A stretch of DNA of 64,000 nucleotides from Ziziphus jujuba. Its lineage: Eukaryota; Streptophyta; Magnoliopsida; Rosales; Rhamnaceae. The stretch covers positions 30,414,501-30,478,500 of the forward strand of contig NC_083380.1 in NCBI RefSeq assembly GCF_031755915.1, read 5' to 3'. How positions within the stretch are numbered: position 1 is the first letter of the stretch; each line of letters begins with the position of its first letter. The notes beneath the pieces were generated by a model. That model was not told the origin of the DNA. It saw nothing but the letters and a program-made list of their open reading frames with translations, and did no database searches. This document shows positions 16,393 to 61,443 of this stretch, one piece after another. The position numbers and the translations under genes are program-made.

Positions 16393-16589
16393 GGAGCATG
16401 GAAGCTTCCTATATTTATACAGTCTAATCAATAAAAATTATACAATTATATCCTTTTGAAACTTTGAGCAAAATATGATCTCCTTCCTTTAATTAAAAAA
16501 TAAAAATAAAATAAGAGAGACAAATTATCCATAAATTAAATTGAGCGTTTTTGTTATATTTTAAAATGAGTTTGGCGTTTCACCGTTGG

Positions 16590-25255: not shown

Positions 25256-26110
25256 AAAAAATTCCAGAACTCTACGCCCTCAAACCTCCTTCTTTCCAAT
25301 ATTCAACTCAACCCACAATACCACCATTTCAATTTTTGTTTTCTTAAACCCCACCACTCTAACTCCTCTATGATCGTCTATTCGTCTCTCACAGCTTAAT
25401 CGAAACTCTCCAAGTAAGAACTCACCAACCTCATATTCAATCAAGATCGGGGCCTTAAGACTCAAAAGAACCCAGCCAAATGAGACTCGATTATCAAGGC
25501 CATAGACACCCTTTCAACTCTAGACAGCGATATAGTCACCATCGGGACTTCGCTCTCGACCACGTCGAGACTAGTCTGAACCACCAAGTAAGAGCAGTGT
25601 TTAATCTGAAGGAAAATGCCCACTTGTTTGGTACATAAGCCGGTGGCATTTTGCAGGTTATCGATGTCATTTTTTTTTATTTCTTTTTTTTTTTTGGTTT
25701 TTTGTTCACACTTAAAAAAAAAAAAACCAAAGGCTCTCAAAAAAAAAAAAAAAAAAGCCAATGGCTCAAAAATACTAACCTTTAACCCAAGCTCTAAACG
25801 GATTTTGGATTGTCGAGGAGAAGACCTGGGCAGTGGAAGTAATAGAAGGATATCTGGGGTTGGAACGGTGGAGATAGTGTATTTTATTTGGGAATTTTGA
25901 AATGGTGAGAGATGGTGAATTTTATTTGGAAATTTTGAAATGGTAAAGTTTGTGTGAAATAGTGGTGCAAGCTGGAAAGAAAATGATATTTTGAAGCAGG
26001 AAGGTTGAAGGAAATTTTTTTGAAGTTGCAATTTTCTCACGTGTGACAAGAAAGTATCTAAGTCGTTCATTGAATAAATTAAAATCTAATGGCTGGTCAT
26101 TTTCTCACAT
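25256..26110. other. Unassigned sequence next to the foldback element
   Basis: This stretch is less AT-rich than its left neighbour. Open reverse-strand frames of 202 and 61 codons cross it, but they contain homopolymer-derived runs and no domain I recognise. The plus strand near 25480-25680 has codon-like texture (AIDTLSTLDSDIVTIGTSL in one frame) interrupted by stops. It could be a captured or decayed exon; I cannot name it. Confidence 0.3.
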
Positions 26111-30168: not shown

Positions 30169-30229
30169 AACACTTTGATTTTTCCCCCCTTTCTCTTAGA
30201 AAAGCTTGGAGGTTCTAATAAGAGAGCAT

Positions 30230-34429: not shown

Positions 34430-35030
34430 TTCCATATTCACTAGGCAAACTTACACAACTCACTTTCCTATACCTTGGACAGAACAACTTTTCAGGACTA
34501 TTCCATCTTCACTAGGCAAGCTTACCCAACTTACTTTTCCAAATTTTTCAGAGAACAGCTTTAGCGGTCATATTCCGTGCTCTTTTCAAAATCTTACCCA
34601 CCTCATGGCATGAGTTCTTTATTATAACCAAATACGTGGTCCAATCCCATCATTATCTAACCTTAATAATTTAAACTTCCTAGATTTTTTATATAACCAG
34701 TTGCATGGTCTTGTTTCTCAATCATTATCTAACCTCATGAATCTTGAGACTCTTTATCTATATCCTAACAAATTAAATGGCACTTTGGAATTTGACATAT
34801 TTTGTCGCTAATTTTAGCAAAGGAAATAAGAATGTAACAAGTTCAAAATTCAAGCATTTAGGATTCAAGTCATGCAACTTAAGTGAATTCCCATATTTTA
34901 TTAGGCATCAAAATGAGTTGGAGCGGTTGTCACTTGTTGAAAACCAGATCTGCTGTGAAATACCTAAATGGATGTGGTGCAAGCATAGACACTTTGGTCA
35001 GCGTCAACATTGCAGCCGTGAAAATCTAAT
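34430..35030 (+). pseudogene. RLP mid-LRR fragment, inverted relative to the cluster
   Basis: On the plus strand, frames around 34440-34615 and 34777-34985 give LRR text: IPSSLGKLTQLTF, SENSFSGHIPCSFQNLTH, then SNLMNLETLYL and SSKFKHLGFKSCNLSEFPYF. These correspond to the middle LRRs of the RLP at 40.7-43.5 kb. Several stops and frameshifts break it. At about 35017 it joins, head on, an RLP N-terminal fragment on the other strand. So a single ancestral copy was partly inverted. Confidence 0.8.
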
Positions 35031-35640
35031 AGATCCAATGAGTCAAGCATTTGGATTGAAGAAGGTAAGCTTCCAGAGTCAGGAATATAACACTTGAGAT
35101 TGCCATTGGAACTACATATAGAATTCTAAGGTTTGGCAATTGAAAAACTCCTGTAGGAAATTCACCCTGCAACTCACAATCATAAAGCATTATAGATGTC
35201 AAAGAAGTAAAATTAGCAAGAAAATCAGGTACCCTAGATGATAAATCTACTTCACTGAGATCAAGTACTTCTAAATTAGATAGATTTTGTACTAAGCTAC
35301 CTAAATTGGACTTTTAAGTTTCGAAAAGATTGAGTCAACATTTTCATTGTAATAGAAAGACAAGTCAAGATGTGATAACTTATACAAGTGTGAAATTTCT
35401 AGAGGAATTTGACCCCAAAAAAAAGAATGAGAGAGGTTGAGATAAGTAAGGCCCAAAAGTTTGCCAACAGCAACAGGAATTTCAGAGGAACTGAAATCAT
35501 TATCAGCAAGGTTTAGGCTCTGAAGGTGAACAAGATTGAAAAGGGTCCTGCTGGAGCTGATAGAGCCAAATAAACAACAACTACTAACATCAAGACCAAT
35601 CAAATTACCAGTCTCCCCATCACACTGGACACCATCCCAT
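35017..35640 (-). pseudogene. RLP N-terminal LRR fragment
   Basis: The minus strand encodes the segment after the LRR N-cap through the early LRRs: VIGL-type start as IGLDVSSCCLFGSISS, LVHLQSLNLADNDFSSS, LYKLSHLDLSFYYNENV, then frameshifts. It is very close to the N-terminal part of the RLP at 42609-43532 and shares that gene's 16-bp loss at 'ctgaaaatctaatagatcc' (here 'gtgaaaatctaatagatcc', about 35018-35036). The signal peptide is missing: RLP similarity stops near 35640 and a different flank follows. Confidence 0.8.
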
Positions 35641-36119
35641 TAGCAGCAAATACGAAAGCTTCTTTTATGGTCAAGTCATAGGCTATTAAAAGTATTAATG
35701 GACATATAACTGCACTGGGACATTGCAGCCTCCAAAGATGACTCGACTAGCTAGAAATAATTTAGCCATTTCTTAAAAGAAAAGAAAAGAAAAGCATCCT
35801 ACGGTGGTGAAAAATTTGTATGCGTCAATGGTACTGGAGCAGCGGGTACCTCTCCTACTACCTCATTTGAAATTGGCCAGCTCACTTATCTTGTCATTTA
35901 ATTTTATCTTAGACATTTTTAATAATAAAGTTCAAGTTTGGTAAAAGCCAAAAACATGAAAGATTGAATTGCTAATTAATAGAAAAAGAACTACTAAAAA
36001 TTGAAATGGGCAAAGAGGGAATAAATATATAATTGAGCCAATAAATGATTGTCCCGATTAATTTGCTTTGCAATTTCGCCATTAGTCCAATTTTTCCTTT
36101 GACAGAATCCAAATTTGAC
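35641..36119. other. Duplicated flank with the empty TRIM site
   Basis: 35660-35900 matches 49335-49990, which lies beside another RLP fragment. 'gacatataactgc' at about 35701 is the unoccupied site of the TRIM inserted at 49372. 35915-36105 matches part of the 1.1-kb direct repeats (1835-2050 and 59885-60110). No gene is seen. Confidence 0.65.
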
Positions 36120-38075: not shown

Positions 38076-40710
38076 TTTTTAAAATATACCATTGAACTGG
38101 ATAATCTATGTTTATGTTTTCTTGCAAAATTATTAAATAATTTTAAATAATAAAACAATGGTGCCAAGTTTGACTAGAAAGTATCCATGATAAGCTACAA
38201 TATTCAACCAATGAGGAATCCTCATTTGTAGTATTTGCTTGTATATATTTACTGGACCCTTAGATGAAGTTTTCATACATATCTTTAGCAATGAGTGCCT
38301 GAGCTTCCATCCATGAGGAAGATTTAGGGAAAATAATTTGTCACAAGGGATTATCACAATAAAGCATGATATATTGTAAACATGAAATTTTTAATTATTA
38401 CATGTTCTTCTCTGTTTCTGTGAAAGCATGAATTTATTATATCAGCGAGTATTTGAAATACTTGTTAATTAATGTTTATGTTTTATATTTATGTTTATGT
38501 TTTATATTTTTCTTTTCTGCTTGAAAAATCAAGCATATAATTTATACAATGACAAAAGTAGAAAAGTTTTTCAAAATGATCCTCATTTTATAAAGAGTTT
38601 GAAAAGGTTTCCACTTTAGTGTACTTAACTATCATTTGAAGCATTAGCCAATTCTGAATAACTTAAGTAAAACTTTTCAGAAAAAAAATGAAAACCAAAA
38701 ACAGAAAACCGAAAACATAAACGTTATCAAATTAGTGGTTAATTGTCATGGTTTTATCACTGTTTTCATTGGGTTTCAGGAATATTCTTGGTTCACTGTG
38801 GAAGCAATATCACGCTTCCAAACAAGAGCTTGTATTCTTGTTTATATGGTAAAAGCTGGAAACTCTGATGCAATTCTAAGGAACTGCAAGATCTCATCAT
38901 TAAATCCTTTGCCAATCAATGAAGCACTTCTATTCTATCCTATCCAGAATGGAAGACCGAAACATGTTTGGACGGTGAAGTCTTTGGAGGTAAGTCTCTG
39001 TCAGTCTTTGTATCTATTTCTTTTTTAATTGTTTTGTGTTTTGGGAATAGATATTAAATTGGTTAAAGTCTCTTTGTTCTGGTATTATTTAGTAGTAACC
39101 GATGGTTTACTAGTAAGAATAAGTAGTAGCCTCCAGTGATGACTTGACTAGTACTGACTATTTGGAATGAGTTGAACTTAAAAATAAAAGTGTTCATTTC
39201 GTGAGAAATCATTCACTGGGCCGGGTTTACAAGTTCATATATGGAATCATAACAACACAATGCATGCTACGTATTAAGGACAAAAAAGTAAAAGAATAAT
39301 AATAATAATAATAATATAATTATTAAAAAAAAAAAAAAAAAAAGAGGAAAACGAAAAAGAACAAGTCAGAGTAAAGTGGTTAGGAATAGCTGCATATTTC
39401 TGATTTAGCCTCAAACTCTCCATTTAGAAAAATTGAGTCACAAGATTAAAGTCTTAAACAGAAAAGAAAAAATATTTTCATAGAAGGTGTATATATGTTG
39501 ATTATTCTTTTCTTCAATTTTTTCGTTTCATTTATGAGATCATCCATCTGCATATATTGATTATTAATTGTATAATATAAGTAAAAACATCCAAGGTGGA
39601 TGCAAATTATTCTTTTTATTTTGAAAATTGAAGAGTTGTTATATGTTATCTCTTTCAACAGACTACTAGCTAGGCTTGAAAATTTGATTAAGAGCTAAGC
39701 TTGAAAGAATTTATCATAACCAAAATGGTAGGTTCAGGTAGTGCTTAAGAAACTAACAATTTCACGGCTAATTCATTTATGTGGTACTGATGTTGAGTAG
39801 ACTGAATCATGGAAACTTAATCCACTTTTGGCATCTGCAGAGAAAAAGAAAATGGAAACTGTCTGGTTTATAAACTCCTACTAATATAAGATGTCCCCTT
39901 TGCACATTGCAAAGTGATCAAAGAACTAAGAGTGACAATCCTACGAAAATTCATGTTCATTGGAAGAGATGCATGAAAACTTCTACAGGTCATTGCTCAT
40001 TACGGTCTGTAAACTATAAACGTATATGTTAAGCAAATCTATGAATAAGAATTCCTTATTTGTAGAATTGAGCAGAATATTGTTTCTTATCATGGATGCC
40101 TTCTAATCAGTGTTCGTACATTATGCTTATTAAAAATAGAACATGATCGAATACAATATGCCCCTGGTCAATTGATCGACCTCTCTTTTTCTTGCCTCTT
40201 GTCAACTCTGTTTTCTTTAGAGAAGAAGTCTAGCTTAGATTCCATTGCATTGATATATTTCCCTTTATTTTTGGTAATTTTGTGGTTTTCATGCGAGTCC
40301 TACGAGAATTTTTTCAAAATATTGAAATAATAAAGTAAAGCAATGGTTAAATTCTACCAGGTTTAGTCAATTCCAAGCCGTTTTCATTTTTCACCTAGGG
40401 AAATTCACGGCTAGTACATGCAATTCAAAGAGGGTGAAGACAAATTCCAAGCAGTAGGTAACATGATATTTAAGATAGAAAAAAAGAAGACAAGCATAGC
40501 AGCTCACTTATGTTTATGTACAACAGCAGAGATAGTTGAAATAAAAAACCAACACCATAAAAAATAAGGTCTAGACTAAGTTTACAACAACAGCAAATGT
40601 ACATAGGAGTTTTGACCGAAAATAAATAACGTATGTACATAGGAGTTGAAAAAGATAAAGAAAACCAACACCATAAAATGCAGAGATAGTTCCATAGCCT
40701 TGGAAGCACT
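38076..40710. other. Intergenic DNA with RLP flank duplicons, no gene
   Basis: 38690-39245 is the inverted partner of 16590-17480. A 97-codon plus-strand frame at 38735 has no recognised domain. 39690-40710 is the RLP 3'-flank duplicon seen at 17490-18825. 39295-39345 is an ATA/A-rich microsatellite. Nothing else is supported. Confidence 0.55.
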
Positions 40711-43532
40711 TCAATTTCTTTGATATCTCCTTCGCCTTCTCCTTTTGCATTGCATCTTAACCAACCATCCATGCCTCCTTATGATCACCATGTCGCCAAG
40801 AGCTACTCCAACAACCAGCCCACTCACGAATCCTACCAACACAAATTTCCAATCTAATTTGAACATAGACTCTAAATCATCATTTTCTTCAAAAGCTGAA
40901 GGAGGCAGTGACGAGGGCTCTAAATCACCACATTTCTTAAACAATAGATCTCCACACAATCCTGGGTTTCCCTCAAATGAACTGCTCTTGAATGCACTGA
41001 ATTGGTTCCCTTGAGGTATAGGCCCTGTAAGCTTGTTGTATGATACATTGAAGCTTGCAAGGAACATAAGTTGCTTTAACTGTTGAGGAATCTCTCCGGA
41101 AAGGTTGTTTTGAGAAAGGTCCAATGATTCAAGTTCCGTTAAATTCCCCAACGACGATGGGATGCAACCAGTGAGCATGTTGTTTGAGAGATTTAAGGAG
41201 CGAAGGGACGTTAGATTCCCAAAAAGTGTAGAAATCTCTCCTTCAAATTTATTGCTTGACATATCAATAAAAGCAAAGATATCTTGGATGGCTCCATAGT
41301 ATCTATTCACCCCTTTGGTTGTAATTGTGATTGCAAAACGAATTTTATCTTGGTACAGTGCAGTTTTTGGAATAGTAAAATTAAATATCACACCCAAATA
41401 TGTAAAAGGATGGGGATCGATGGCCTTCATAGCATTCCAACTGGAAACGTAATGAGATGGCAACTCACCTGTGAAATTATTGAAAGAGATATCAAGCACT
41501 CTCAACTCAGGGAACCCGATATAACCTTTTGGTTTCTCAATTACACCGTAGAACCCGTTGTGTTGTAGTATGAGAAGCTTCAAGACTGGAAGGGACCCCA
41601 ACCAAGATGGAAAAACGTCACTCAGCTGATTGTTGGAGACAACAATACCTTCAAGCATCTTACAGTTGGATAATGTTCTTGGCAGCTGCCCCTGCAGCTT
41701 ATTATAACTAAGATCAATTATTCTCAAGTTACTTGCCTTGTTGTTGCATATTTTTGGAATGATGCCTTTAAAGAAGTTGTTTCTTAAATTTAGCACATAC
41801 AAGGTACTGCTTAAGTTTCCCAAACACTCTGGAATATTCCCATCCAATGTGTTATTAGACAAATCAAGGTTGTAAGGAGAACTCAGATTGCAAAACATAA
41901 TTGGAACTTCTCCACTAAGTAGGTTATTTGACACGTTATAGAACACAATGGATGGTGGAGGAATCGGTAGTGTTCCTTGCAACCTGTTAAATGAAACACC
42001 AAATGTAAGTAAGTTAACCCACGGAAGAGCTACAGGCAGAAAGCCTGTTAGCAAGTTGTCCTCAATGCTGAAGCTGACCAAAGTGTCTATGCTTGTCTTC
42101 CACATCCATTTAGGTATTTCACAGCAGATCTGGTTTTTAGCAAGTGACAACCGCTCCAGCTCGTTTTGATGCCTAATAAAATATGGGAATTCACTTAAGT
42201 TGCATGACTCGAGTGCTAAAAGCTTGAATTTTGAGCTCGTTGCATTTTTGTTTCCTTTGCTAAAAAGTAGCGATAAATTATTTCTACCAAGATCAAGGTA
42301 TGCAAGACTTTTCATTCTGAAAAACATGTCAAATTCCAAAGCGCCATTTAATTTGTTAGAATGGAGATAAAGAGTCTCAAGATTCATGAGGTTAGATAAC
42401 GATTGTGGAACACGACCATGCAACTGGTTATCTGAAAAATCTAGGAGGTTTAAATTAGTAAGGTTAGATAATGGTGGGATTGGACCAAATAGTTGGTTAT
42501 AACGAAGAACTAATTTTGTGAGCCGGGTAAGATTTTGAAAAGAACGCGGAATGTGACCACTAAAACTGTTTTCTGAAAGGACTAGAAAAGTAAGTTGGGT
42601 AAGCTTGCCTAGTGAAGATGGAATAGGTCCTGAAAATCTAATAGATCCAATGAGTCAAGCATTTGGATTGAAGAAGGTAAGCCACCAGAAAACCCACTTC
42701 CACCAAGTTTCAATTCTTTAAGAGGACTTTTATGGTGGAAGTCAGGAATATAGCCCTTGAGATTGCCATTGGAACTTACATCTAGAATTCTAAGGTTTGG
42801 CAATTGAAAAACTCCAGAAGGAAATTCACCCTGCAACTCACAATCAGAAAGCATTATATATGTCAAAGAAGTAAAATTAGCAAGATAATCAGGTACCCTG
42901 GATGATAAATCTACTCCACTGAGATGAAGTACTTCTAAATTAGTTAGGTTTTGTAGTAAGCTACCTAAATTGGGACTTCTAAGTTTTGAAATTATTGAGT
43001 GAACATTTTCATTGTGATTGAAAGACAAGTCAAGATGTGATAACTTATACAAGTGTGAAATTTCTAGAGGAATTTGACCCCAAAAAAAACAATGAGAGAG
43101 GTTGAGATAAGTAAGGCCCAAAAGTTTACCAACAGCAACAGGAATTTCAGAGGAATTGAAATCATTATCAGCAAGGTTCAGGCTCTGAAGGTGAACAAGA
43201 TTGAAAAGGGTGCTGTTAGAGTTGGTAGAGCCAAATAAACAGCTACTACTAAGATCGAGTCCAATCACATGACCAGTCTTGCCATCACATTGGACTCCAT
43301 TCCATAAGCAGCAATTGCTTGAATTTACTCCATGAGATTTCCACTGCAGAACCTTAGGATCACATAGAGAAGCAGATTTGTGAATGGCAAAGCTATCCTT
43401 GAACTGCATCAAGGCAGAGCTTTCATCATCATGACAAGCTGGTTGTACAGAAGTAAAAGAGTTAGCAACTACAATCTCCAATACCATAAGTTTCAAAAAT
43501 AGACACAAAAACAAAACTAGACACCACCCCAT
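40711..43532 (-). pseudogene. Receptor-like protein broken by a 16-bp deletion
   Basis: The ATG at 43532 (MGWCLVLFLCLFLKL) opens a signal peptide, the LRR N-cap (PACHDDESSALMQFKDSF, NCCLWNGVQCDGKTGH) and early LRRs. An upstream in-frame ATG at 43604 lies within a few bases of the TATA box and is unlikely to be used. After LDSLDLLD, at about 42636, 16 bases present in the intact paralogue are missing, and the frame stops at 42609. The other frame continues without a stop through the remaining LRRs, island, C-cap (GNPGLCGDLLFKKC), membrane helix (VLVGFVSGLVVGVALG) and basic tail to 40711. So one indel separates it from a receptor of about 930 residues. It is otherwise close to the 19.75-kb copy in the C-terminal half. 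Confidence 0.88.
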
Positions 43533-43607
43533 AATGCTTTGATTTTTTTCTGTCAAGTCTCTTTTTCTCTTAGATAAGCATGAAGGTTCAACTAAATAAA
43601 GCATTTC

Positions 43608-47938: not shown

Positions 47939-49340
47939 TCAATTTCTTTGATATCTCCTCCACCTTGCTCCTTTGCATTGCATCTTAACCAACCATCGAC
48001 GCCTCCTTATGATCACAGTGTCACCAAGAGCTACTCCAACAACCAGCCCACTTAAGTATCTTGTCAACACAAATTTCCAGTCCAGTTCGAATAATGACTC
48101 TGCATCACCATTTTTTTCAAAAACTGATGGTGGCAGTGTTGAGGACTCCGAATCACCACATTTTTTAAGTAATGGATCACCACACAATCCTGCATTTCCC
48201 TAAAATGAACTGCTCTCAAATGAATTAAATTGATCCCCTTGAGGTATAGGACCTGTAAGATTGTTATGATATATATTGAAGCTTTCGAGAAACCAAAGTT
48301 GCTTTAGTTGTTGAGGGATCTCTCCTGAGAGATTGTTTTGAGAAAGGTCCAATGATTCCAATGCTGTTAAATTCCCTAAAGACGATGGTATGCAACCAGT
48401 GAGCATGTTGTTTGAAAGGACTAAAAATTATAGGCCCTTTAGGTTCCCAAACAGTTCAAAAATCTCTCCTTCAAATCTATTGCTTGACATATCAATAAAA
48501 GTAAAGATATCTTGGATGGCTCCATAGTATCTCTTCACCCCTTTGATTGTTATTCTGATTGTATAGCAATTTTCAGCATGCAACCAATCAGTCTTCGTAG
48601 CACCAGAAAAGTTCAACATCACACTCAAATATGAAGAAGGAATGGGGTTGATAGCCTTCATAGCATTCCAACTCAAAATGTAATGTGATGGCAACTCACC
48701 TGTGAAATTATTGAAAGAGATATCAATCACTTGCAACTTTAGGAACTCCCAATGGTTTTTAGGTTTCTCAAATAAACCATAAAAACCATTGTGATGCAGT
48801 ATGAGAAGCTTCAAATTTGGTAGGGATCCCAACCAAGATGGGAAAACATCATTCAGTTGATTGTTCGAGACAACTAAACCTTCAAGCATCTTACAGCTGC
48901 AGATTGATCTTGGCAGCTGCCCCTGGAACTAATTATAATTGTGATAAATTATTCTCAAGTTACTTGCATTGTTGCTGCATAGTTCAAGAATGTTGCCATG
49001 AAAGGAGTTGTTTTTTAAATTCAACACATACAAAGTTCTGCTTAAGTTTCCCAAACATGGTGGAATCATCCCGTCCAATATGTTATCAACAAATCAAGTA
49101 AGTAAAGAGATCTTAGATTACAAAATGTATGTGAAATTTAGCCACTTAGTAAGTTATTTGAGACGTTACGACTCATGATGGATGGTGGAGGAATTGGTAG
49201 TACTCCATGCAACATGTTAGATGAAATACGAAATGTACGTAAATGAATCTAGGGAAGAACTTTAGGATGAAAGCCTTTTAGGAAGTTGTCGGCAATGCCA
49301 AAGCCAACCAAAGTGTCTAGGCTTCTTTTTTGGTTAAGTC
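47939..49340 (-). pseudogene. RLP C-terminal half, decayed
   Basis: Minus-strand frames at 48428-48889, 48200-48406 and 47939-48187 give, in order, LRRs (GLVVSNNQLNDVFPSWLGS), the island (YTIRITIKGVKRYYG), the last LRRs, the C-cap, an acidic segment, a membrane helix (VLTRYLSGLVVGVALG, with Arg inside it) and a basic tail. Stops at 48198 and 48420 and further damage at 48900-49340 separate them. Similarity ends near 49340, where the flank shared with 35641-35900 begins. It is about half the length of the family. Confidence 0.82.
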
Positions 49341-49371
49341 ATAGGCTATTAAAAGTCTTAATGGACATATA

Positions 49372-49765
49372 TGTAACAGCCTAGTCCACCCGCATGCGAT
49401 ATTGTCCGCTTTGGGCCCAACCCGCACAGTTTTGTCAAAATGTGTCGCAAGGGAAAGGTATCCACACCCTCTTTTAAGGCATGCTTCGTTCCCTTTCCAA
49501 CCGCATGTGGGATCTCACAATCCTCCCCCCTTGGGGCCCAGCGAGTCTCACAATCCTCCCCCCTTGGGGCCCAGCGTCCTCACTGGCACACCAATCTGGG
49601 TACTGGCTCTGATACCATCTATAACAGTCCAGTCCACCCACATGCGATATTGTCCGCTTTGGGTCCAGCACGCACGGTTTTGTCAAAACGCGTCGTAAGG
49701 GAAAGGTATCCACACCCTTTTTAAGGCATGTTTCGTTCTTTTTCCAACCGATGTGGGATCTCACA
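49372..49765 (-). mobile_element. Complete TRIM retroelement (394 bp)
   Basis: Two LTRs (49372-49519, 148 bp; 49620-49765, 146 bp) flank about 100 bp of internal DNA. Read on the minus strand, a primer-binding site complementary to initiator Met tRNA lies at 49603-49617, two bases from its LTR. A purine tract (complement of 'atcctccccccttgggg') adjoins the other LTR. The internal part carries a 33-bp tandem duplication starting at 49513 and 49546. No protein is encoded, so mobility depends on other elements. The flanks match an empty site near 35701 and show a TATA duplication of 4 bases (or 5 with a shift). Confidence 0.9.
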
Positions 49766-50008
49766 TATAACTGCAATGGGACATTGCAGCCTCCAAAGAT
49801 GACTCAACTAGCTAGAAATAATTTAGCCATTTCTTAAAAGAAGAAGAAAAAAAAAATAATAATAAAATAAAAAATAAAAAAAGCACCTTACGTTGGAGAA
49901 AAACTTGTATGCATCAATGGTACTGGGCCAGCAGCAATCTCTCCAAGTACGTCATTTAAAATTGGCCAGCACACTTAACTTCCATTTTACATGGCTCTTT
50001 AATTTTCA

Positions 50009-50145
50009 GGGTTTTTTCGATAAATAGCCACCTTACAATTCCATTTTAGAAAAATAGCAAATTTTTTTATTTTTTTAAAAACTAACCAATATTTTACCCG
50101 TTTGGACTAAAGTACCCTTAAGGTGGCTATTTATGGGAAAAACCC
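50009..50145. repeat. MITE-like left end of the MULE
   Basis: The 26-bp end AAGGTGGCTATTTATGGG... at 50120-50145 is the inverse of the start at 50009, so 137 bp carry both ends of the family. The bases after 50145 (aagagaaaa) do not repeat the 9 bases before 50009, so this piece was not inserted here alone. Confidence 0.7.
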
Positions 50146-50396
50146 AAGAGAAAAACTCTGTGTCCTTGTTCTTGCTTCAAAACGAAAGCCTCCAATGGAA
50201 AGCTATAAGAAAAAGTTGACTACTTTTTGACGAATTTATCAAATTTCTTAGGAGTGAACCTTTTTTTTGTTTTTTTTGGGTTAAATCTTTTATCCTTTGT
50301 AGGGGAAGAGAGCAAAGGCTTAGATTGCTCACGATCTGAGAGCAATCCTTTTTTGGCCCTTGTCTCTCCCTAACAGGGAATAAATTTGAAAAAGAT

Positions 50397-52933
50397 ATGG
50401 AGAAGGTGATGAACATTTTGAAGCCAAACCCAAACCCACAGCAACAATTGAGAGATTGGCAGCGTAGACTCCACCAAGAGTGCCGCAATATTGAACGTCA
50501 GATTCGAGGTTATATTTTTTTTTTCGACTAACACCCAATTCCCTTTTTTTTTTTTTGGGTGTTTTTTTGGCGTCAAATTTTTATTTTTTATTTTTTATTT
50601 ATTTTCTTTTTAGGATAATTTGATTATTAGATTCACAAAGGCATAAATTTAGCTCTATGGGCTTCTGGGTATTGTTAAATTCGGGTTCTTTTGTAATGGG
50701 TTCTTTCAGATATACAAAGAGAAGAGAAAAGTGTGCAGAAAGCCATTAGAGAAGCTGCCAAGAGGAATGACATGGTCTCTGCTAAGGTACTTGCTTATGA
50801 ACCTGGTTTTACACCATTTTTTTTTTTTTACTGAATAATATCTATTGAATTCCAATAATTGTTCTGATCACTTTATCGAATTCCCATGCTTGCTTTCCAC
50901 CTATAGTTCCATAAAAATATATCTTTTGCTTAAATTCAATTGAGCTGATGGTGGACAGTAGAATTTTTGGCTATTTTTGTTTTTGATTACTCTATATAAA
51001 TTAAATTTGTACCTAATTCATGCATGGAAGAGCTATCAACACTCGCTACAAATATGTACATTTTATAGCAAATCATGGGTTTTTGCAACTTGGTTTAAAC
51101 ATGGAAAATGAGGTTTTATATCTATGCTTCTACCTACATTAGAGGACGATTATCCTAGTTTCATTGGTTTTAATTTAGCTGTGCTGTGGTTTGGCCTACT
51201 GGCTGTTGTACTTAAAAAAATTTTGCTGGTTGCACCGTAGTTTTCCTCCCTCCCTTCTTTGTTATGAATTGTCTTCGTTGCGTATCTATTTTCAGGCACT
51301 TGCAAAAGAAATTGTCAGATCAAGAAAAACAGTGACCCGTCTTTATGAAAATAAGGCACAACTCAATTCAATATCAATGCACCTTGGGGAAAGTGTTGGT
51401 ACGAAGTTCTTAATTATTTTATCACCGATGGAACTTCTATTTATAAATTATTATCCACTCATCTCTGATTTCTGTTATTGCTTGTCTATGAATTTAAGCA
51501 GTGTAGTTGCATCTCTGCCTGAATGGATTATGTTCAGAATTCTATTTTAATTTGATAGAAATTTGTTTTGATAACCAAGAGACTAATGATAGGATCATAT
51601 CTAAGGTTAAGAATTTCTATAGTCTTAGTTTGATTTTAAAAGAAAATATTTTTGTCGTATTACTTGGATAGAGAGTGCATGATGGATGAAGTGAGTCGGT
51701 GAGTTGAACAACAACTTAGATTCCTCATGCAAAGAATAATCTTTTAAGACAATCTCGAGACTAGTCACATGTTCCTGTACAAAGATGACAGTCTTCATTT
51801 TGAAAATATAAGATTAACTTTCCTTTATAATCTAATCCATTCCATAGAATTACCATATTTCCGACATAGACATGAGATAGATGGTTGAGAAGATAAGATG
51901 GTTAATTTTATCACATGTTGAATTTTCATAACAAATGAACTGGGGAATTGAATCAGACAGTACTGACTATGATATTTTTATGTTGACCCATTATGAAAAT
52001 TTGTTCTTTTACTTTCAAGTCTAGGCTATTGCAATGTAGGGTGCAAAAGGAACCAGTGTAATGATGTTTCTTGCATTAGGGATAAATTATCTTTATAACA
52101 GTGGTTAGTAATCTATTTTATGAACTGATGGTAATGCTTATTGTCTGCTTGTTTTACCTCTTTTAAATTTCCTTTCTTTTAAAAAAAAAAATTGGTGAAT
52201 CTGCAGCTATTGCCCTTACTGTGGGGCATTTATCTAAGAGTGCAGATGTTATGAAGCTTGTCAATAATCTCATGAAAGCTCCAGAGGTGGCTACTACAAT
52301 GCAAGAGTTCAACAAAGAAATGACCAAGGTATGCCTGTTGCTAACTTTTACTTTATAGAGTGTAAAAATATACCTTTTTCGGTGGATAAAGTGTAGTTTT
52401 TCAGGTTATAACTGCCTTTTGTTGAGCATTTTTTTTAGCAGTGTTTTCTTTGATTAAAAAAGAATTAGCTAAGATTAATATCCAACCGAAGTTTTTACTT
52501 TCAATTTCCTATTCTTAGATTTATTCAGCCTTTCATTTTTGTGTTCTCATATTCTATTAATCCAATTGAGTTGTCCGCTGAAGAAACTGATTTTGTAGGC
52601 AGGGGTGATTGAGGAGATTGTAAATGATGCTGTTGACTCAGCACTAGACTCTGAGGATATGGAAGAGGAGATAGAAGAAGAGGTTGATAAGGTTTTGACT
52701 GCCATTGCTGGTGAGATTGCCGCAGAGCTTCCTGAAGCTATCAGGAAGGAGATAATAAAACAACCTGCTCAGACATCAGAAAATGGAGAGGAGGTATGTT
52801 GACCTGACTGTCGTGTAATATGAAAAGCTTTTACTTTCTGGCATTGAAGAAGCGTAACATGTTTAATTTTATATTTATATAGGAGGAAGCAATACCCGAG
52901 GGTGTTGATGATGAGGAAGAATTGGAAGAATAA
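50397..52933 (+). CDS. VPS24: ESCRT-III subunit VPS24/CHMP3, C-terminal tail lost by frameshift
   Basis: Six exons: 50397-50508, 50710-50786, 51296-51398, 52207-52328, 52599-52793 and 52883-52933, all GT-AG, encode 219 residues. The N-terminus MEKVMNILKPNPNPQQ, then RDWQRRLHQECRNIERQIR (basic helix 1), GHLSKSADVMKLVNNLMKAP and the acidic DSALDSEDMEEEIEEEVDK helix identify VPS24. This subunit polymerises on endosomes with SNF7 and VPS2 for multivesicular-body sorting. The family ends at about 229 residues with a MIT-interacting motif of the type RARLAKVR. Here the DNA for that tail is present (52932-52963), but one A is missing after GAAGAA, so TAA (52931-52933) ends the protein first. VPS4/AMSH-type MIT partners would lose this site. 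A poly(A) signal lies at 53263-53268. All other codons and splice sites look sound. Confidence 0.93.
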
Positions 52934-54240
52934 GAGCTCGACTGGCCAAAGTACGGTCATAAGTCAGAGATCAAGCCTACCATAACGTTATGGGAGAAGT
53001 TGGGCAGTGCGTTTGCATGTGGCCTCTTGAACAGATTGAGATTGCGGCGCCTCTGGCCTAATTATCACTAACAAAGAGAACTTCGAGGAAGCACCCACTG
53101 TATAATAGAAAGCAATGTTTTTGTGAAGTTGTGAGTTAGATGGTTATTTGTGTAACATTGAAGTGCGGAATGTATCTTTTGTCTATACCTGATTTATAAT
53201 TACCATGGTGGAAATTTGTGTTGCTCTTGAAGCATTGTAACTTTCATAATCTCATCAACATCAATAAAAAAATGAATTTCATGAAACTGCTCATGAGAAT
53301 TTTAGATTTTGTGAATGAAATGAACGGCCCTAATCTTTGTGTACTTTGACCTTGCTTGTTAAGGGCAGATCATCCCTATTTGTATGCAGAAAATCTAACA
53401 ATGTGTACTTGGATCTTGATAATAGAGCTTTGGCATTAAGGATTGGGCTGGATTAAACCACAAACTCCTGATCAGTTCTATATCCCAAATGAGCCCGGAA
53501 AGCCGATGCATATGCTTTGAACATCTTATTCACAATCTTGGAATATTATCACAGGGATTCATGGATTGTTGCCATCATTTTCATATGCTTTACAGGTGTT
53601 TGATCCATTAGGTTCTAACTGGATTTGAGATCTAACTCCATTTAATTATTTGAAAGATCCCATACAGAGGGCTTTACAGAGCCATTAAGATATGATACTA
53701 TGAGCTTGCAAACAGCAATGCTCACATGACAATGACTTTCTTGGAAATAATGCTTCCTCAAAGGAAACCTTACAACTAGAAGGTTAAAAGGCATACTAGG
53801 CCAATTGTGGACTGCAATAGATTACCTTCTATCAAGTATCAAGCATTAGTTTAAGAGTTGTTTATTATACAGTAATAAGAATATTTCTTTACACAACCAA
53901 ATATTTGTTCAATTTTCATTAACAATTTTAAATTGTCTGAAGTTATATTTCCGTATAACTTAACTTGCTTGTTCGAAGTCATATTTCTGAATAAGTTAAG
54001 GATGTTTGCCTACAGACTGTTGAACATGCTATTTTTAGTACTTTGCATCCGAATACATCTAAAACATTTAGCCGTATAGTACTGAGTGTATCTGAAACGA
54101 AAAATTATAATGGTGGCTTATAATGTTCATTTAACAAAGATAACAATGTGGTATTGATGTAAGGATAAGTAATTGACCTTATAGGAAATGTGCCATGTTT
54201 ATTTATTGGAATTCCGTTATGTACAAACGCCTTAAGAGCT
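52934..54240. other. VPS24 3' region and intergenic DNA
   Basis: About 330 bp of probable 3' untranslated sequence is followed by moderately AT-rich DNA with no frame or repeat I can identify. It probably came along with the VPS24 locus if that was captured. Confidence 0.5.
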
Positions 54241-54269
54241 CAATTGCAAATTTTAAAAAATTTTCCGCT

Positions 54270-54490
54270 TGTCGGAAATATTTCCTATAGGCGGAAAAAT
54301 TTTCCTACTGGAGGAAAAATGGAGGAAAAACATTCCTCCAGTCGGAAATCCCATATGAAGAAAAATTGAAGCCTCTTGATAAATTTCCGCTAGGTGGAAA
54401 AATTTTCCTCCAAGCGGAAATAGTTTTCCTCCTGTTGGAAAACATTTCCTCCAAGCGGAAATCGTTGAATAATTTTTACTCCTATTAGAA
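54270..54490. repeat. MULE subterminal repeats, 3' side of transposase
   Basis: Many copies of TTTCCnnn/nnnGGAAA words (ttttccgcttgtcggaaa, ttcctccaagcggaaat, ttcctactggaggaaa) occur in about 220 bp. Matching words occur at 57540-57720 on the other side of the transposase gene, as expected of transposase-binding arrays. Confidence 0.65.
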
Positions 54491-54835
54491 ACTAATTTCC
54501 TCCACTTGGAAAATCAATTTCTAATAGATTATATAAGTTAATAGTAGGGTAAAAAAAATTGGGAGTGGAGACAAATATTATATAAGATGAAGATGGAATT
54601 AACAAAAAATGTAGTGACATTTAAAATCAATAACCATTTTAAATAAAAAAAAAATTGATATATGTTTGTTTTTATTTTCAAAATCATTTGGACATTTCAT
54701 AAAATGATATGTAAACTAAAGATTGAAAATCAATTCCAGAAAGCCTCTTTTCATTTAGGATTAAATTCAAAAAAAAAAAAAAGATATGAAATAATTATCA
54801 AAACATATTAAACCATAACACTAAATTAAAACTTT

Positions 54836-57400
54836 CTAATTCGAAGTATAAGACAATGGATTCGTACATCTCTGCCTATAATGTCCAACACCACCGCATC
54901 GGCTACATCTACGTCCAATAACATCTTCACCTTTGGATGGTATGCATTGCATCCTCGGTCTACCGGCTCGCCTACGTGTCCATCTTGGTGGAAGAACAAT
55001 GCGACTTGCCACGTCATCCGGGACATGCCACTGTTTTTCATCTAACAAATGATAAATGGACTCAGCATAAGCTGCACGATATGCATCCGCGGTGTAGTAA
55101 TGAGAACACATGCCATGAGGAGCAATTTTTCGGTCTCTGCAAGCGGCAATACAATGATCACAAGGATATTGATCAAGATCGAAGACTTTGCATGAGCATG
55201 TTTTTGATTGGAGATTAACTGTACCCCTCAAACTCCCACCTTCCACAAGAAATTCATGCATATTAATGGCTTTCACACGTAGTCCGATGGATTCCAAATT
55301 TCGTAGTTTGAGTTGCTCTTCCATATGGTCAGTCACAGGCTTTGTCAATTTTGCACCTGCAGTACGTCGCTCATAAAACCACCTTTGCAGTAAATCCCGT
55401 ATGTGCTCTATTAATGCTACTATTGGCATCTCTCTAGCATCTAGCAGAATGCCATTCAAGCTTTCTGCAATATTGGTGGTCATGATAGTGTACCTTCTAC
55501 ATGGACAAAGAGAACGTGCCCACCTTGTAGGGTCACATGATCGAATGTACTGGGCAGCCCTACTGTTTTTTGCCTCAATTTGCCCCATATAAAACTCAAA
55601 ATCTTCAACCAAATATGCACTAGCTGCGAGCATGAAACATTGTATTATTGATTCATCTTTCGCATGTCCATTTGCTTTAATATTTCTGCTTATATGGTAC
55701 GTGCACAACGCATGGTATGCATTGGGAAAAACTTTGCGTAATGCCCTTTCAATAGCGGGGTGTCTATCACTCACAAACACCAAATCTGGAAAATCTCCAA
55801 TAGCATCCTTCAGGTTTTGGAAAAACCATGTATATGCTTGCTCGTTCTCTCCATCTCCAATGCCGAAAGCCAAAGGATATATTTGCTTATTGCCATCCAT
55901 GCCCGATGCAATATACATGTACCCTTTGTATTTCCCTTTCAATGTAGTTGTATCAACAGCCAATACGGGTCTTATGTGGAATTTAAATCCCCTAATGCTT
56001 GCTCCAATCGCCATAAAGAAATATACAAAATTGTTATTATCGTCTGTTTTGATACGTGTAACAGTCCCAGGGTTCTTCGACACTAACTCATAACAGTAGG
56101 TAGGTAACTTAGCAAAATTCTCCTCTGGAGATCCCCTAACACTGTTAAGTGCATACTCTTTACCTCTCCATGCTTTGTTGTAGCTTATATTCACCCCATA
56201 TTTCTGCAAAAAATCATGTTGAATTTCTTTGGGTTTGTAAACACGTGCAATACCTTCATATTTAGATTTGATACATTGCCCGATAACCCGGCTACTGGCT
56301 TGCCTGTGTTCTCGATGCACGATATCTAACGAGCAACTGTGTACATTATCAAAAATTCTCACAACAAATATTTCTCCATTTTTAAATGTGGTTGCACATA
56401 GTCGCCATTTACAAGTATTTTCCAAGCATACAACCTCATACCGTTGTGTAGTTGACCGTGTCACCTTGAACTCCTTATTTTCTCGCATGCAATAGATACT
56501 CAGTTTATTCTGTAGGTCACGTTTGTTGCGAAATAATTGTCCAACTACTATGCTCTCACAGCCAGTGAACTTTGACGAAAATATGGCCATAGAACCACTT
56601 CTGTTGCTCGATGATATGTGGTCACTTGTAGCACGATGAACCCTAACATCATCAACTCCTTCATTGTTCATTTCAGGATGCATATCATTATCATTGTCCG
56701 GCAACTCATGATCAAAATCTACATCATTATGACCAACATCATCCACTGCTGCATTGTAATTCTCATCATGATCAATATGATGCAACTGCTCATACTCCTC
56801 GTCGTTAGGAAACCGTTCAGCATAGTCACCTCCAACATCAACTCCTTCGTGAATGTTAAATGATGTCCAGGCCCCACGAACATCAACTTGATCTCTAAAC
56901 TGAGTTTCTTGACCCATAATTTCCTGAGATGTAGCCTAAATTGGTTCAGTACCGGAAGCTTGTGGTAGACGACCGCCAATTGGAGGACAAGAAAAAGAAT
57001 GAAGATTACTCCCACTATCCGAAGCAAATGCTATTTGATGAACATTTCTACATACATGTTCAACTTTTGAAATCACCTCAACATACAATGGAGGCCGCAT
57101 CATTGTCATCCCTCCATTCCTCACTTCTTGAAGAAAGCATTTCACATCCCTATCACATCGTATTTCTGTAGGATCCAACTTTTCTGCACATCGTCCATAT
57201 ATCCATTTTAGCTTTAGCAAATATTCATTTCGATCTATCTCAATAGAATTGAAAATCTCATCCTCTAACTCTGATTTTGTGCATCTCTTGCTGACGGAAA
57301 CCATTACATTTTTACCATTTCGATATTCCCAATCACCACTATCATTTTGTACCAATGTTCCATTGTATAAAACCGCAATTACAATGTCATCATCTTCCAT
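54836..57400 (-). CDS. Mutator-like transposase (mudrA type), one in-frame TAG
   Basis: The reading frame from ATG 57400 runs for 855 codons, with a single TAG at 56936-56938 after residue 154. Six codons later an ATG (56917) begins 693 unbroken residues. Numbered from that Met: acidic linker 30-95; MuDR DNA-binding zinc region about 120-200 (C164, C169, H193, C195); catalytic MULE domain with D322 (AVDTTTLKG), D384 (VSDRH) and E485 (NIAESLN); SWIM finger C574, C576, C586, H588; CCHC knuckle C671, C674, H679, C684. The first 154 residues are the N-terminal domain usual in plant MULE proteins. One nonsense change, probably from CAG, is the only damage, so the element was active recently or the 693-residue part may still work. 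It drives transposition in the nucleus. Confidence 0.93.
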
Positions 57401-57539
57401 TTTACTACAAAATTAAATGAATAACGTTAAACTAAATCAATAAATATATAAAATTTTGAATAATATTAAACAAACATATTAACTGTATTAAAAAAGTTGA
57501 TTCTATTTTTTTTTTTTGGGGCCAAATATAGCTTTTTCC

Positions 57540-57720
57540 TACTGGCGGAAAATTGGCGGAAAACTGGCGGAAAAATGGTGGAAAACTGGCGGAAAACTGG
57601 CGGAAAAACTGGCGGAAAACTGGCGGAAAATTAGAGGAAATTTGGCGGAAATTTGCGAAAACTGAGAAACTGGAGGAAATTGGCGGAAATTCATCTTTTT
57701 CGCCAAATTTCCTCCATTTT
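57540..57720. repeat. MULE subterminal repeats, 5' side of transposase
   Basis: The word TGGCGGAAA(A/T) occurs about ten times within 180 bp, followed by 'gccaaatttcctcc' in the opposite sense. It lies between the transposase start and the right terminal repeat and could also form part of its promoter. Confidence 0.75.
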
Positions 57721-58245
57721 TACTGTTTTTCGCGATTTTTCAGTTTTACACAAAATTTCTTCCATTTTCAAACCATATGCCACCTAAGTATCTTTAAAAT
57801 CACATATAACATCTCATAAATCAATTTCTTGCATACCCATATCAAATAAAAAGCTTAAAAAACCCTAAACTAATAAAACTTACAAGAAAAAAGAGAAAGA
57901 GAAAAAACAAAAAAAAACACATATTTTCTTACTTTCATCTAATAAGAAAAAAGATAAAATTTTTACTTGATTTTAGTTTGAGATATGAGAAAATACAAAA
58001 AAATGAGAGTGAGAGGCGATGAGATGCAAAGAGTTTAGAGAAACCCCACGAATAGTTTTGCAGAAACCCCACCCCCACGAACGGCTGTGTAGAGAAAGAA
58101 AGGAAAGGGTGTAAAAAAAATCTTTTGCGTAATTTTCAATTTTATCAAGGATATTTTTGTCCCAAGGTGGTTAGTTTTTAAAAAAAAAAAAATTTGCTAT
58201 TTTTCTAAAATGGAGTTGTAAGGTGGCTATTTATGGGAAAAACCC

Positions 58246-58590
58246 TAATTTCCATGTGAATGGAGGAAAACTTTGGCCCAATTCCAACCATGATTTGATC
58301 TTCCACTTTACATGGCTTCTTAATTTCTATGTGAATGGAGAAAAACTTTGGCAACATCACTAAGACAATCTGCCAAAGACTTCACCCTCCAACCATGTTT
58401 TGGTCTTCCATTTTAGATGGCTCTTTAATTTATATGTGAATGGAGAAAAACTTTGGCCCAATACTGGCAACATCACTAAGACTATCTGCCAAAGACATCA
58501 CCCTCCAACCATGTTTGGTTTCCATTTTAGATCGCTTATTAATTTCTATGTGAATGGAGAAAAACTTGGGCCTAATATTGACAGCATGAG
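58246..58590. repeat. Imperfect tandem repeat (target site family of the MULE)
   Basis: The phrase 'tttctatgtgaatggagaaaaactttgg' recurs four times (about 58250, 58325, 58430 and 58543), with 'ccaaccatgttttggtcttcc' between. Unit lengths are about 75 to 113 bp. The interrupted first unit is completed by the sequence left of 50000. Confidence 0.7.
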
Positions 58591-59038
58591 TTGACGATAA
58601 AATACGTAGACTCTACAAAATATTTATCGAATGTCTATTTATGAATAGTATATTGTATTATATCACCAATAGAATGATAGTATTTAAGTTTTTCCTACGT
58701 GAATTGTTGAACAATCAATTAAAAAAAAAAAAAAGAAAAGGGGGAATAGATAATGAGAGAAATTTGTGGAAATCAATTAATCTCAAACCAAAGTCTTTAA
58801 CTATTTTTAAAATCAGAAAATCAAAATAGATTTTCAAAATAAAATAAAATTTTAAAGTTTAAAATTGAATTTCAAATACAAATCAAATTGAAATTCAAGT
58901 TCGTTTTATCTGGGTTCCTCTCTTCTATAGATAGCTAGGGAAATAATAAGTTTAAAGAGGTTGGAAATATATGAGAAAAGAGTGGGGAAAAAAAAAAAAA
59001 AAAAAAAAAGAAAAGTGCAGAAATTTTGAAAAGAGATG

Positions 59039-59073
<35 letters not shown>

Positions 59074-59489
59074 GGAGGGGAGAGAGAGAGAGTTTTTAGA
59101 AGGAAAAATTTTTTTTTTTTTTTTAAAAGTGATTATCTTCTTTCTTCTACTTTTGTTTTTCTTTTTTATTTTTTTTTCCTGAATTAACGCATAAGATTTG
59201 CTTACTAAATATTCTAGCTTAAATGAATTACTGGGTATTTCCAAAAAGTATCATGGATATTGATAAATAAATTTAATTTGTCAGTTTCCAGTCTTAGAGA
59301 ATTACTGTGGATTTCTAACATACGTCATAAAAGCTGGTCTGGTAAATAAAAATGCCAGTATCGAGGCCTTAGAAAATTACTGCATATTCCTCACAGACAT
59401 TATGTATATTGGGTACTGATAAAAATATTATTGTGGTACTAATAAAAAAAGGGATGAAAAAATAAATTACCTTGAATAATATCCTGTAA
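58591..59489. other. Low-complexity intergenic DNA
   Basis: It contains a GA/G-rich microsatellite (59038-59094), poly-A and poly-T runs, and otherwise AT-rich DNA. No gene is seen. Confidence 0.6.
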
Positions 59490-59991
59490 ATTTGATAAAA
59501 AGCAGACAAAAATATTGAAAATAGGTCTTTTTCCTCTAGCCCAAAAATCATCAAATATGGATAAAATCTCCAAAATATGTTTTATCCAAAATTAAAATTA
59601 CGATGAGAAATATGTTTACTGCGTTTCCTTTTTAAACAAGGAAGTGAAAAGCTATTACCAAAAAAATATCTTTTCATCTTTGATTTAATTTATTCCTGAT
59701 TTCCTCAAAATCCGGTTACAAAAGGGATAAAAAAAAAAATTGAGTGTAAAAAAAAAAAAGGGAATGAAAGAAAAATGACTAATGGCAGAAAACAAAAGTG
59801 GAAAAGCCAAAAAAATAAATTAAAAAAGCAGAAGCGAAAATAGCCAAAGGAAAAGAAAAAGATAGTACAAGGCAAGGAGACCCACGCTTTTAATAATAAA
59901 GTTCAAGTTTGATAAAAGCCAAACTCATGGAAAATTGAATTGCTATCTAATAGCAAAAGAACTGGTAAAAATTGAAATCAGCAAAGAGGGA

Positions 59992-60026
<35 letters not shown>

Positions 60027-60665
60027 GAGCCAATAAAAGATGGTTCCAATTAATTTGCTTTGCAATTCCGCCATTAGTGCAATTTTTTCTGTTCCAAATC
60101 TTTTTCCTTTGACATCCAATCGAATAAAGGATAATAAAATCAAAATCTAAGAAAATATTTAAGGCATCGAAGTTTGTAGATTACCCTTATCCAAATGATT
60201 TCTTCTTTAAAAAAAGATTGAATCAAAACAAAATCTTATGGCTTGATTTTACTCATTCTATAATTGGATCACACTGGGTCCCATTTAAAATAAATGCGCA
60301 GTCAAATTATGTTTGGAGAGTTATAGCCAAATAAATTATTTTTTTTATTAAGAGTCTTTTTGGTAGAATTTCTTTTTCTTTTTTTTTTTCTAAAGTCTCC
60401 ATTTATTAATCAAAATCTTATTTGTAAAAAAATAAAAAATAAAATAAAAAATAAAAAATATTTGACAAAAGTTAACAAATATTTACTAATAAAGAATAAG
60501 TTTTTTTTAAATTATTTTTAAAAAATCTAAATTTTGAACTTTTCTAAAAAAAAAATTTATTCAATAAATATATAATGTATTGTTTTATTTACAATCAAAT
60601 ATTTTTTTTATTTTTAATAAAAAATTTATTTTAAAAAGATATATTATATAAAGCAATGCTGTAGG
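59490..60665. repeat. 1.1-kb direct repeat, copy B (copy A at 1449-2564)
   Basis: It is collinear with copy A, with a longer TA microsatellite at 59996-60022 and a few insertions. The match ends at 'gcaatgctgtagg' (60653-60665), exactly where a TRIM has inserted. No gene is seen. Confidence 0.75.
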
Positions 60666-60992
60666 TGTGAAGTCCCACATCGGTTAGAAAGGGAAACGAA
60701 GCATGCCTTATAAGGTGATGCGGATATTTTTCCCGTACGATACGTTTTAACAAAACCTTGAGGGCTGGGTTGTAAGAGGATTCCCCAGGCCTAAAGAGGA
60801 CAATATCGGACGCGGGTGGTCTGGGTTATCACAGATGGTATCAGAGCCGGACCCGGATCGATGTGCCAGCGAGGATGCTAAATCCCAAAGGGGGAGGATT
60901 GTGAAGTCCCACATCGGTTGGAAAAGGAACCGAAGCACACCTTATAAGGTGGTGTGGATACCTTTTCCGTACGACGCATTTTGACAAAACCT
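60666..60992 (+). mobile_element. TRIM retroelement, 3' LTR truncated
   Basis: LTR 1 is 60666-60833 (TGTGAAGTCCCACATCGG...TTATCACA). The primer-binding site TGGTATCAGAGCC lies at 60836-60848, the purine tract AAAGGGGGAGGA at 60887-60898, and LTR 2 starts at 60900. LTR 2 stops after about 93 bp at 60992, where a gypsy LTR begins. The internal region is only 66 bp. It is the same family as 49372-49765 but in plus orientation. Confidence 0.88.
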
Positions 60993-61443
60993 TGGGCCTA
61001 ACTTTTCCAACACTCCCGTGCGGCACTTAGCACCTCCCTTGCTAAGTAAGCCTTGCTCACAAGCTATCACAATGCAGAAGCTAAGAGTAAGAGAGTAGGA
61101 AGTAGGAGAGTTTGAGAGAATGTGGAGAATACTTGTATTACTAAAATTCTTGGATTCTTGGATATGTTACAAATGAAAGTCCAACCCTTTATATAGAGGG
61201 CTTGGCATGTATGAAGGTTCTAGATATGTACACATGTCACCTATCTAGTTAGGGTTCTAGATTATTCTAGGGTTATGTACAACATATTTACATGGAGTAT
61301 TCTAGAGAGATTCCAATCTACATTAGTCTAGGTTTCTCTTGAATCTTCTAGAATATTCCGGGCTTCTCTAGGATCTTCATGGAGAGTGTAGAGTCTTCTG
61401 GTTAAACCTCAAAGGTTTTACTCCTTTTGCACGGGACGTGACA
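60993..61443 (-). repeat. Gypsy chromovirus 3' LTR
   Basis: Read on the minus strand it begins TGTCACGTCCCGTGC (ending at 61443) and ends GGCCCA at 60993. The purine tract GGTGGGGGAGAG at 61444-61455 (minus strand) immediately precedes it, marking a 3' LTR. A TATA-like 'ctatataaagg' on the minus strand lies near 61187-61198. It interrupts the TRIM LTR. Confidence 0.7.

Follow-up and report, generated by a model that had tools for sequence, protein, structure and literature searches.

A Mutator-like element (MULE) in the genome of jujube (Ziziphus jujuba) has very probably exchanged an earlier ULP1-type cargo for a copy of the entire VPS24 gene, most likely taken up by way of neighboring insertions, and has since transposed repeatedly with VPS24 as its passenger. 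The stretch of DNA from which this reading proceeds, termed the window, covers 64,000 nucleotides (C2:30414501-30478500, where C2 denotes the contig), and positions given without a contig are positions in it. Herein, 50009-58245 is a single MULE that contains, between terminal inverted repeats (TIRs), a transposase frame and all exons and introns of VPS24, a gene of the endosomal sorting complex required for transport III (ESCRT-III). The unit with its ends and target duplications, the boundaries at the donor, the number of copies, the intact frames, and a near-neutral drift are read directly from the genome.

Boundaries and copies of the VPS24 unit

The left TIR (50009-50088, plus strand) and the right TIR (58168-58245, minus strand) are 80 and 78 bp long and 93.75% identical over 80 columns with one gap, when 50009-50088 is aligned to 58245-58168. 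They are flanked by a 9-bp target duplication that reads TAATTTTCA at 50000-50008 and TAATTTCCA at 58246-58254, eight of the nine bases being equal. The element sits in a plus-strand tandem array with a unit of approximately 105-116 bp, which continues at 58255-58587 and leaves a partial unit at 49979-50008. When the insert is removed, the joined flanks match 58520-58576 without a gap through the junction (84% over 57 bp), and 49979-50005 is 96% identical to 58405-58431. An earlier note on this DNA had described inverted ends of about 80 bp, a 9-bp duplication, and a repeat unit restored upon removal of the insert; all three hold.

Absent from that description is an inverted 27-bp copy of the terminus at 50119-50145 (minus strand), identical to 58219-58245, whose outer edge adjoins the captured gene. 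Together with left-arm positions 1-112, it makes up a fused left end of 137 bp (50009-50145, plus strand) that resembles a tiny, internally deleted MULE. In a genome search with the left end, 40 of 565 candidate places were scored: 11 gave full 137-bp matches and one a match to positions 31-137, all at VPS24 copies, and at the remaining 28 the match ends at position 112. The fused end is thus confined, among the scored places, to the 12 VPS24 copies described below.

The search for copies of the gene covered the source genome of 394 Mb in 14 contigs, with a jujube VPS24 protein as query and all 85 candidates scored. It returned 13 near-identical loci, an older paralogue (C8:10.94 Mb), and a single weak hit that is unrelated. 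In 12 of the near-identical loci, the element's left end lies at a constant distance; it is complete in 11 and lacks 26 bases inside the terminus in C4a. These units are spread over nine contigs: C2 (the window), C3, C4 (two), C5, C6 (two), C7, C8, C9 (two), and C10. The right end is present at 11 of them among 40 right-end places scored genome-wide, and the damaged right end of the twelfth, C6a, was read directly from the locus. Nine units measure approximately 8.2-8.3 kb, those on C7 and C10 11.1-11.2 kb, and the one on C8, which is deleted for the part corresponding to 53148-56676, 4.7 kb. Target duplications scored by script agree at eight or nine of nine bases in eight of 11 copies (six at nine, two at eight); among 120 mismatched left-right pairs that served as a control, two reached eight bases and none nine. 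Two further duplications, at C4a (AAAAGTTAA) and C6a (CTTTAATTTAA), were identified by eye beside small end deletions, which brings the total to 10 of the 12 copies, or 10 of 11 insertion places. The mobile copies differ pairwise by 0.5-1.6% (mean 1.0%, 66 pairs), and their tree is star-like with strong support for the C4 pair only (100; next best 82). Other copies of the 8.2-kb unit, for which the earlier note had advised a search, therefore exist. Its proposal that a MULE moved a whole ESCRT-III gene together with its transposase is supported by these 12 units, their 10 duplications, and a donor locus free of the transposon, with the correction that the gene was copied, since a donor is still in place on C10.

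Could VPS24 instead be native to the window and merely lie between a 137-bp miniature inverted-repeat transposable element (MITE) and an independent MULE whose start is near 54240? The inner inverted 27-mer does make 50009-50145 look like a separate small element. The bases to its right, at 50146, however, read AAGAGAAAA and not TAATTTTCA; there is no duplication, and an independent MITE with a duplication of its own was rejected for this reason. A smaller MULE would need a terminus inside the unit, and the earlier note had named a terminal repeat near 54240 with its own duplication as the finding that would speak against its proposal. None was found there, and local alignment gave no convincing second terminal repeat in 50146-58100 (eight scores of 20-35, against 17-38 in control stretches). 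The top score of 35 belongs to an A/T-rich run at 54637-54661; it lies slightly above its own six controls (27-34) and lacks the terminal bases. A smaller MULE with an inner terminal repeat was rejected accordingly. Furthermore, a matching unit stands at 11 other places, the donor lies elsewhere, and a related flank within the window (35.7-36.1 kb), which serves as a substitute for an exact empty site, is without the stretch corresponding to 49982-59887; this gap of 9.9 kb exceeds the element and takes in approximately 1.6 kb past it. Contradicted on all these sides, a native VPS24 at this site was rejected, and its probability is regarded as negligible.

Probable donor locus and proposed route of capture

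The captured host segment spans 3,961 bp (50146-54106, plus strand) and matches the VPS24 locus at C10:17.23 Mb with 96.1% identity. This thirteenth locus has no transposon ends, and the flanks that were read carry no element sequence. Its match to the unit opens at 50146, the first base past the inner terminus, and closes at 54106, and thus includes 251 bp 5' of the ATG, six exons, five introns, and 1,144 bp 3' of the ancestral stop. At the right capture junction (54103-54106), donor and MULE left arm overlap by 1-4 bp, the donor ending at 54106 and VPS24-free relatives of the element resuming at 54103; the overlap at the left junction is approximately 2 bp. The 1,586 bp of upstream sequence at the donor are complete there only and occur at none of the 12 units; elsewhere, only short repeats of 70-95% identity match them. 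Each mobile copy differs from the donor by 2.8-3.4%. Judged by these boundaries, C10:17.23 Mb is likely either the donor itself or one of its alleles, and a second VPS24 locus free of the element, which the earlier note had suggested looking for, is thereby found. Because the promoter sequence beyond the 251 bp was left behind, any expression of the mobile copies would rely on the residual 5' sequence, on the TIR, or on the new neighborhood.

What occupied the place of VPS24 before can be seen in relatives of the element that lack the gene. Three of them were examined inward (L019, L020, and L066), and they match left positions 1-112 and then again from 54103 onward, where in the window the rest of the MULE left arm follows (54107-54835, plus strand, with GGCGGAAA-type repeats at 54255-54461). 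At seven other left-end loci (L012-L018), no element match was present past the end within the 1.5 kb examined. One long relative, C5:2923146-2933925 (10.8 kb), is the sole one with its left part read; between the points equivalent to position 112 and to 54103, it holds 6,584 bp that encode DUF1985 (E 4.5e-28) and Peptidase_C48 in two pieces (1.2e-15 and 8.2e-8). Peptidase_C48 is the ULP1 family and is absent from the VPS24 unit. Since these domains lie in the position of VPS24, the gene replaced a ULP1-type cargo, and the VPS24 family descends from a ULP1-bearing TIR MULE. In L019 and L020, the left arm repeats about 1 kb of the right arm in inverted form, and this copy takes in the start of the transposase frame; in L019, it is followed by a peptide that, compared by eye, resembles the C terminus of ULP1.

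For the capture itself, two neighboring insertions mobilized as one unit are the most likely route. The 137-bp piece would represent a small MULE with an internal deletion that had inserted just 5' of VPS24. A larger MULE would have been positioned downstream and would already have been without its left end, because the donor runs into an internal left-arm position at the right junction. The transposase would then have paired the two outer ends, the only ones still available, and carried along whatever lay between them, and the composite would have multiplied into the 12 transposon-borne copies that stand beside one donor, with VPS24 carried along as a passenger. The inner terminus at 50119-50145 is preserved, with its outermost base adjoining the captured DNA at 50146, as an insertion would give. 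Mobilization of neighboring insertions is a published acquisition model for Pack-TYPE elements (PMC8903248).

Capture by aborted gap repair or by replication template switching is a possible, if rather doubtful, alternative. Herein, a break in the left arm of a MULE would be followed by synthesis that switches to a MULE end beside VPS24, runs out into the gene over about 4 kb, and returns into the left arm, without any composite of two insertions. The short overlaps of 1-4 bp on the right and approximately 2 bp on the left fit this route equally well and are like the 2-bp median microhomology given for animal Pack-TIRs in PMC8277862, and a donor without leftover insertion agrees with it. However, the gene starts directly at the outer tip of a MULE end, which calls for the insertion of a MULE next to VPS24 in any event, and the single 137-bp structure (112 + 27) readily reads as an internally deleted element.

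Several observations weigh against the capture and spread of a transposase-bearing composite as outlined above. A free-standing 137-bp element was not found among the 40 scored left-end places, and the donor locus in this genome retains no leftover of either precursor insertion, both of which count against template switching as well; an origin by template switching, in turn, would leave much the same junctions. C6b has no target duplication, and that of C4b is lost. C4a and C4b have flanks in common and therefore represent a single insertion whose neighborhood was duplicated along with it. Base-by-base reading of the transposase covered the window and C5 copies only, and the 64 candidates scored out of 2036 do not include those of C4b, C7, and C10.

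Condition of the transposase and VPS24 frames

In the window, the MuDR-type transposase frame lies on the minus strand at 54836-57412, followed by the GGCGGAAA-type repeats of the right arm at 57535-57720. It contains PF10551, PF00872, PF03108, and PF04434, each above the Pfam cut-off, and hence is the mudrA-type transposase that the earlier note had recognized, with the frame interrupted by a TAG at 56936-56938. Because of this stop codon, the window copy is not self-mobile. Among the 64 scored candidates, transposase sequence was detected in at least eight of the 12 VPS24 units, and the family is large, with many members open over 858-859 residues. C8 is the sole unit known to have lost most of its transposase. 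In the C5 copy, the transposase is open across 854 residues and VPS24 is open as well.

The window VPS24 consists of six exons on the plus strand, at 50397-50508, 50710-50786, 51296-51398, 52207-52328, 52599-52793, and 52883-52933, separated by five introns that are all GT-AG. Its product contains the Snf7 domain (PF03357), has CHMP3 as its best sequence match in the PDB (E 3.9e-41), and is 97-98% identical to its closest proteins, the Z. jujuba VPS24 proteins P0001-P0004. A one-base loss just 5' of the TAA at 52931-52933 truncates the frame in exon 6, with the ancestral stop ending at 52962, so that the last 10 codons are gone and the product ends after 219 residues. The claim of a complete VPS24 with five introns is thus correct for the exons and introns, all of which are present, and incorrect for the frame. 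The missing C-terminal residues (an RARLA.V.S-type end) are kept in all 10 proteins aligned with the window product, and the motif, with start codon and full frame, in the donor and nine of the 11 other copies. The lost segment presumably is the MIT-interacting motif. By its Snf7 domain and CHMP3-like sequence, the window copy belongs to VPS24/CHMP3, with this C-terminal motif lost.

VPS24 is open from the ATG to its normal end in nine of the 12 mobile copies (C4a, C5, C6a, C6b, C7, C8, C9a, C9b, and C10) and broken in the window, in C3, where it comprises 144 residues, and in C4b, whose start codon is ACG. The splice sites are GT-AG throughout all 13 loci. The C3 product (C3:23.64 Mb; L033, L042) is close in length to those truncated forms of CHMP3 by which ESCRT-III is inhibited. 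Several of the copies appear in public protein sets. P0001 equals the mobile copy at C10:19.68 Mb at three diagnostic residues and P0002 the C8 copy at two, and P0055 has four residues that mark the donor. P0004, from var. spinosa, has two of three C9a changes in common, and the C9a lineage therefore seems to predate the split of cultivated jujube and var. spinosa. In P0082, also from var. spinosa (Zijuj03G0126000), 26 residues read as VPS24 intron 1 when the translation is compared by eye; it is a degenerate VPS24 that belongs to the mobile lineage and was matched to none of the 12 copies. Its locus is possibly an insertion that is polymorphic between the sour and the cultivated form of jujube.

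Substitutions were counted over 677 of 690 coding bases in the 12 mobile copies, including the three broken ones, with the majority sequence as reference. The 34 nonsynonymous and eight synonymous distinct changes compare with 32.7 and 9.1 predicted from the intron spectrum; the nonsynonymous rate over expectation has a 95% interval of 0.72-1.45, and the ratio of nonsynonymous to synonymous rates (dN/dS) is approximately 1.18 over the 12 copies (95% interval 0.54-2.96). Purifying selection on them is not seen in this comparison with the intron spectrum. Between donor and mobile majority, eight of 677 coding and 61 of 1863 intron positions are changed (P = 0.003), a lower coding rate, as would be expected if this longer branch mostly reflects a gene under constraint. 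With nonsynonymous and synonymous changes in neutral proportion, the mobile copies have drifted as if neutral since the capture, and VPS24 is most likely a passenger.

That the copies are retained for a function—as extra dosage, or as truncated ESCRT-III proteins that interfere with the complex—is regarded as improbable. Nine of 12 intact frames, GT-AG splice sites at all 13 loci, the public annotation of several copies as VPS24 genes, and products ending after 144 residues (C3) and 219 residues (window) could be cited in its favor, as could the truncated CHMP3 retrocopies that poison viral budding in mammals (PMC7618577). The neutral ratio across 12 copies speaks against it, and with a mean pairwise difference of 1.0%, the copies are young enough to account for the intact frames. 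Function in single copies may be compatible with a neutral ratio overall. Slightly less credit still is given to an autonomous, self-driving VPS24 shuttle whose expressed intact and truncated products would alter jujube ESCRT-III, the truncated ones in the manner of retroCHMP3. The "self-mobile gene shuttle" of the earlier note applies to the C5 copy insofar as both of its frames are open, and fails for the window copy, which is broken in both genes. "Gene shuttle" names an activity and no demonstrated benefit, as the cargo is without sign of selection.

Neighborhood of the insertion and relation to known systems

The element is inserted within a cluster of minus-strand genes and fragments for leucine-rich repeat (LRR) receptor-like proteins, located at 8884-9971, 16085-16419, 19753-22206, 27322-30195, 34489-35649, 40711-43607, and 48428-49324. 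The cluster is flanked by a repeat of about 1.2 kb (1440-2557 and 59482-60660, 88% identity), a part of which also occurs at 35917-36098. The receiving tandem array (58246-58587) has 46 bp in common with 17176-17221 and 38942-38987 in the gene cluster. A repeat with TGTAACAGCC...CTCTGATACCAT ends lies at 49366-49765 and again at 838-987 and 60666-60994; it does not occur in the 35.7-kb flank mentioned above and presumably is a terminal-repeat retrotransposon in miniature (TRIM), a type of long terminal repeat (LTR) element. In addition, the window contains a Copia-like retrotransposon region at 10091-16084, with an integrase piece (PF00665) and matching ends of approximately 170 bp, and a satellite-like block of approximately 200-bp repeats in both orientations at 22123-25261.

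With a Mutator-type transposase, TIRs, and a target duplication of approximately 9 bp, the unit is a MULE of the MuDR type. It acts like a Pack-MULE in that host gene sequence lies between MULE ends and a homologous locus exists elsewhere (C10:17.23 Mb). It is not classed as one because the transposase is kept in at least eight of 12 units, whereas Pack-MULEs are non-autonomous. They also usually carry gene fragments, a feature that is not strictly defining, and here all VPS24 exons and introns are carried. For KAONASHI/KIU elements, the unit lacks the ULP1 domain and has TIRs. As regards the neighboring-insertion model, the inner end is preserved, and the two precursor insertions are not present at the donor in this jujube genome and may exist in other accessions.

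Among known systems, Pack-MULEs and other Pack-TYPE elements likewise have MULE ends and duplications around DNA copied from a host gene, with both exons and introns, at several loci (PMC8903248); in contrast, the VPS24 unit carries the whole gene and retains the transposase. ULP1-carrying MULEs (KAONASHI/KIU of Arabidopsis, and those of melon, rice, and grapevine) share the mudrA-type transposase and a multiplied, host-derived cargo, but KI-MULEs have no TIRs and contain a ULP domain, whereas the jujube unit has TIRs and, in place of ULP1, a recent, complete housekeeping gene with an identifiable donor (PMC2528002, PMC13317346). In the fungus Pseudocercospora fijiensis, a hAT DNA transposon captured and amplified the housekeeping gene for histone H3 with the donor left intact; there, hundreds of copies are inactivated by repeat-induced point mutation (RIP), in contrast to a MULE with 12 copies and nine open VPS24 frames in jujube (PMC6710886). 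The Pack-TIR Ssk-FB4 of Drosophila is also a gene made multicopy by a TIR transposon, for which template switching plus transposition was proposed. It involves an animal FB element and is reported to be functional with signs of positive selection, unlike the neutral drift and internal transposase seen here (PMC8277862). Hvu_Abermu of barley is a likely autonomous MULE with extra open reading frames that are possibly host-derived; its extra frame has no known donor gene, whereas donor and both breakpoints are resolved in jujube (PMC9168764). Gene capture by MULEs is known; what is unusual here is the whole gene together with the retained transposase. Among the papers listed in the literature searches, none links VPS24, jujube, and a transposon; coverage mostly excludes subscription journals, and the result is no proof of the case being unpublished.

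Gene capture by plant transposons usually presents itself as old fragments in non-autonomous elements, whose uptake is hard to read. In a single jujube genome, the donor is found here together with both breakpoints, relatives that lack VPS24 and carry the earlier cargo, and 12 daughters approximately 1% apart, and the capture step therefore becomes testable—neighboring insertions against template switching. The case means that a MULE can acquire a whole, intron-bearing gene and keep its transposase. The pipeline of PMC8903248 sets elements that match a transposase aside as "autonomous TE" (transposable element); pipelines that discard such elements would miss units of the VPS24 type, and gene catalogues enter the transposon-borne copies as ordinary VPS24 genes.

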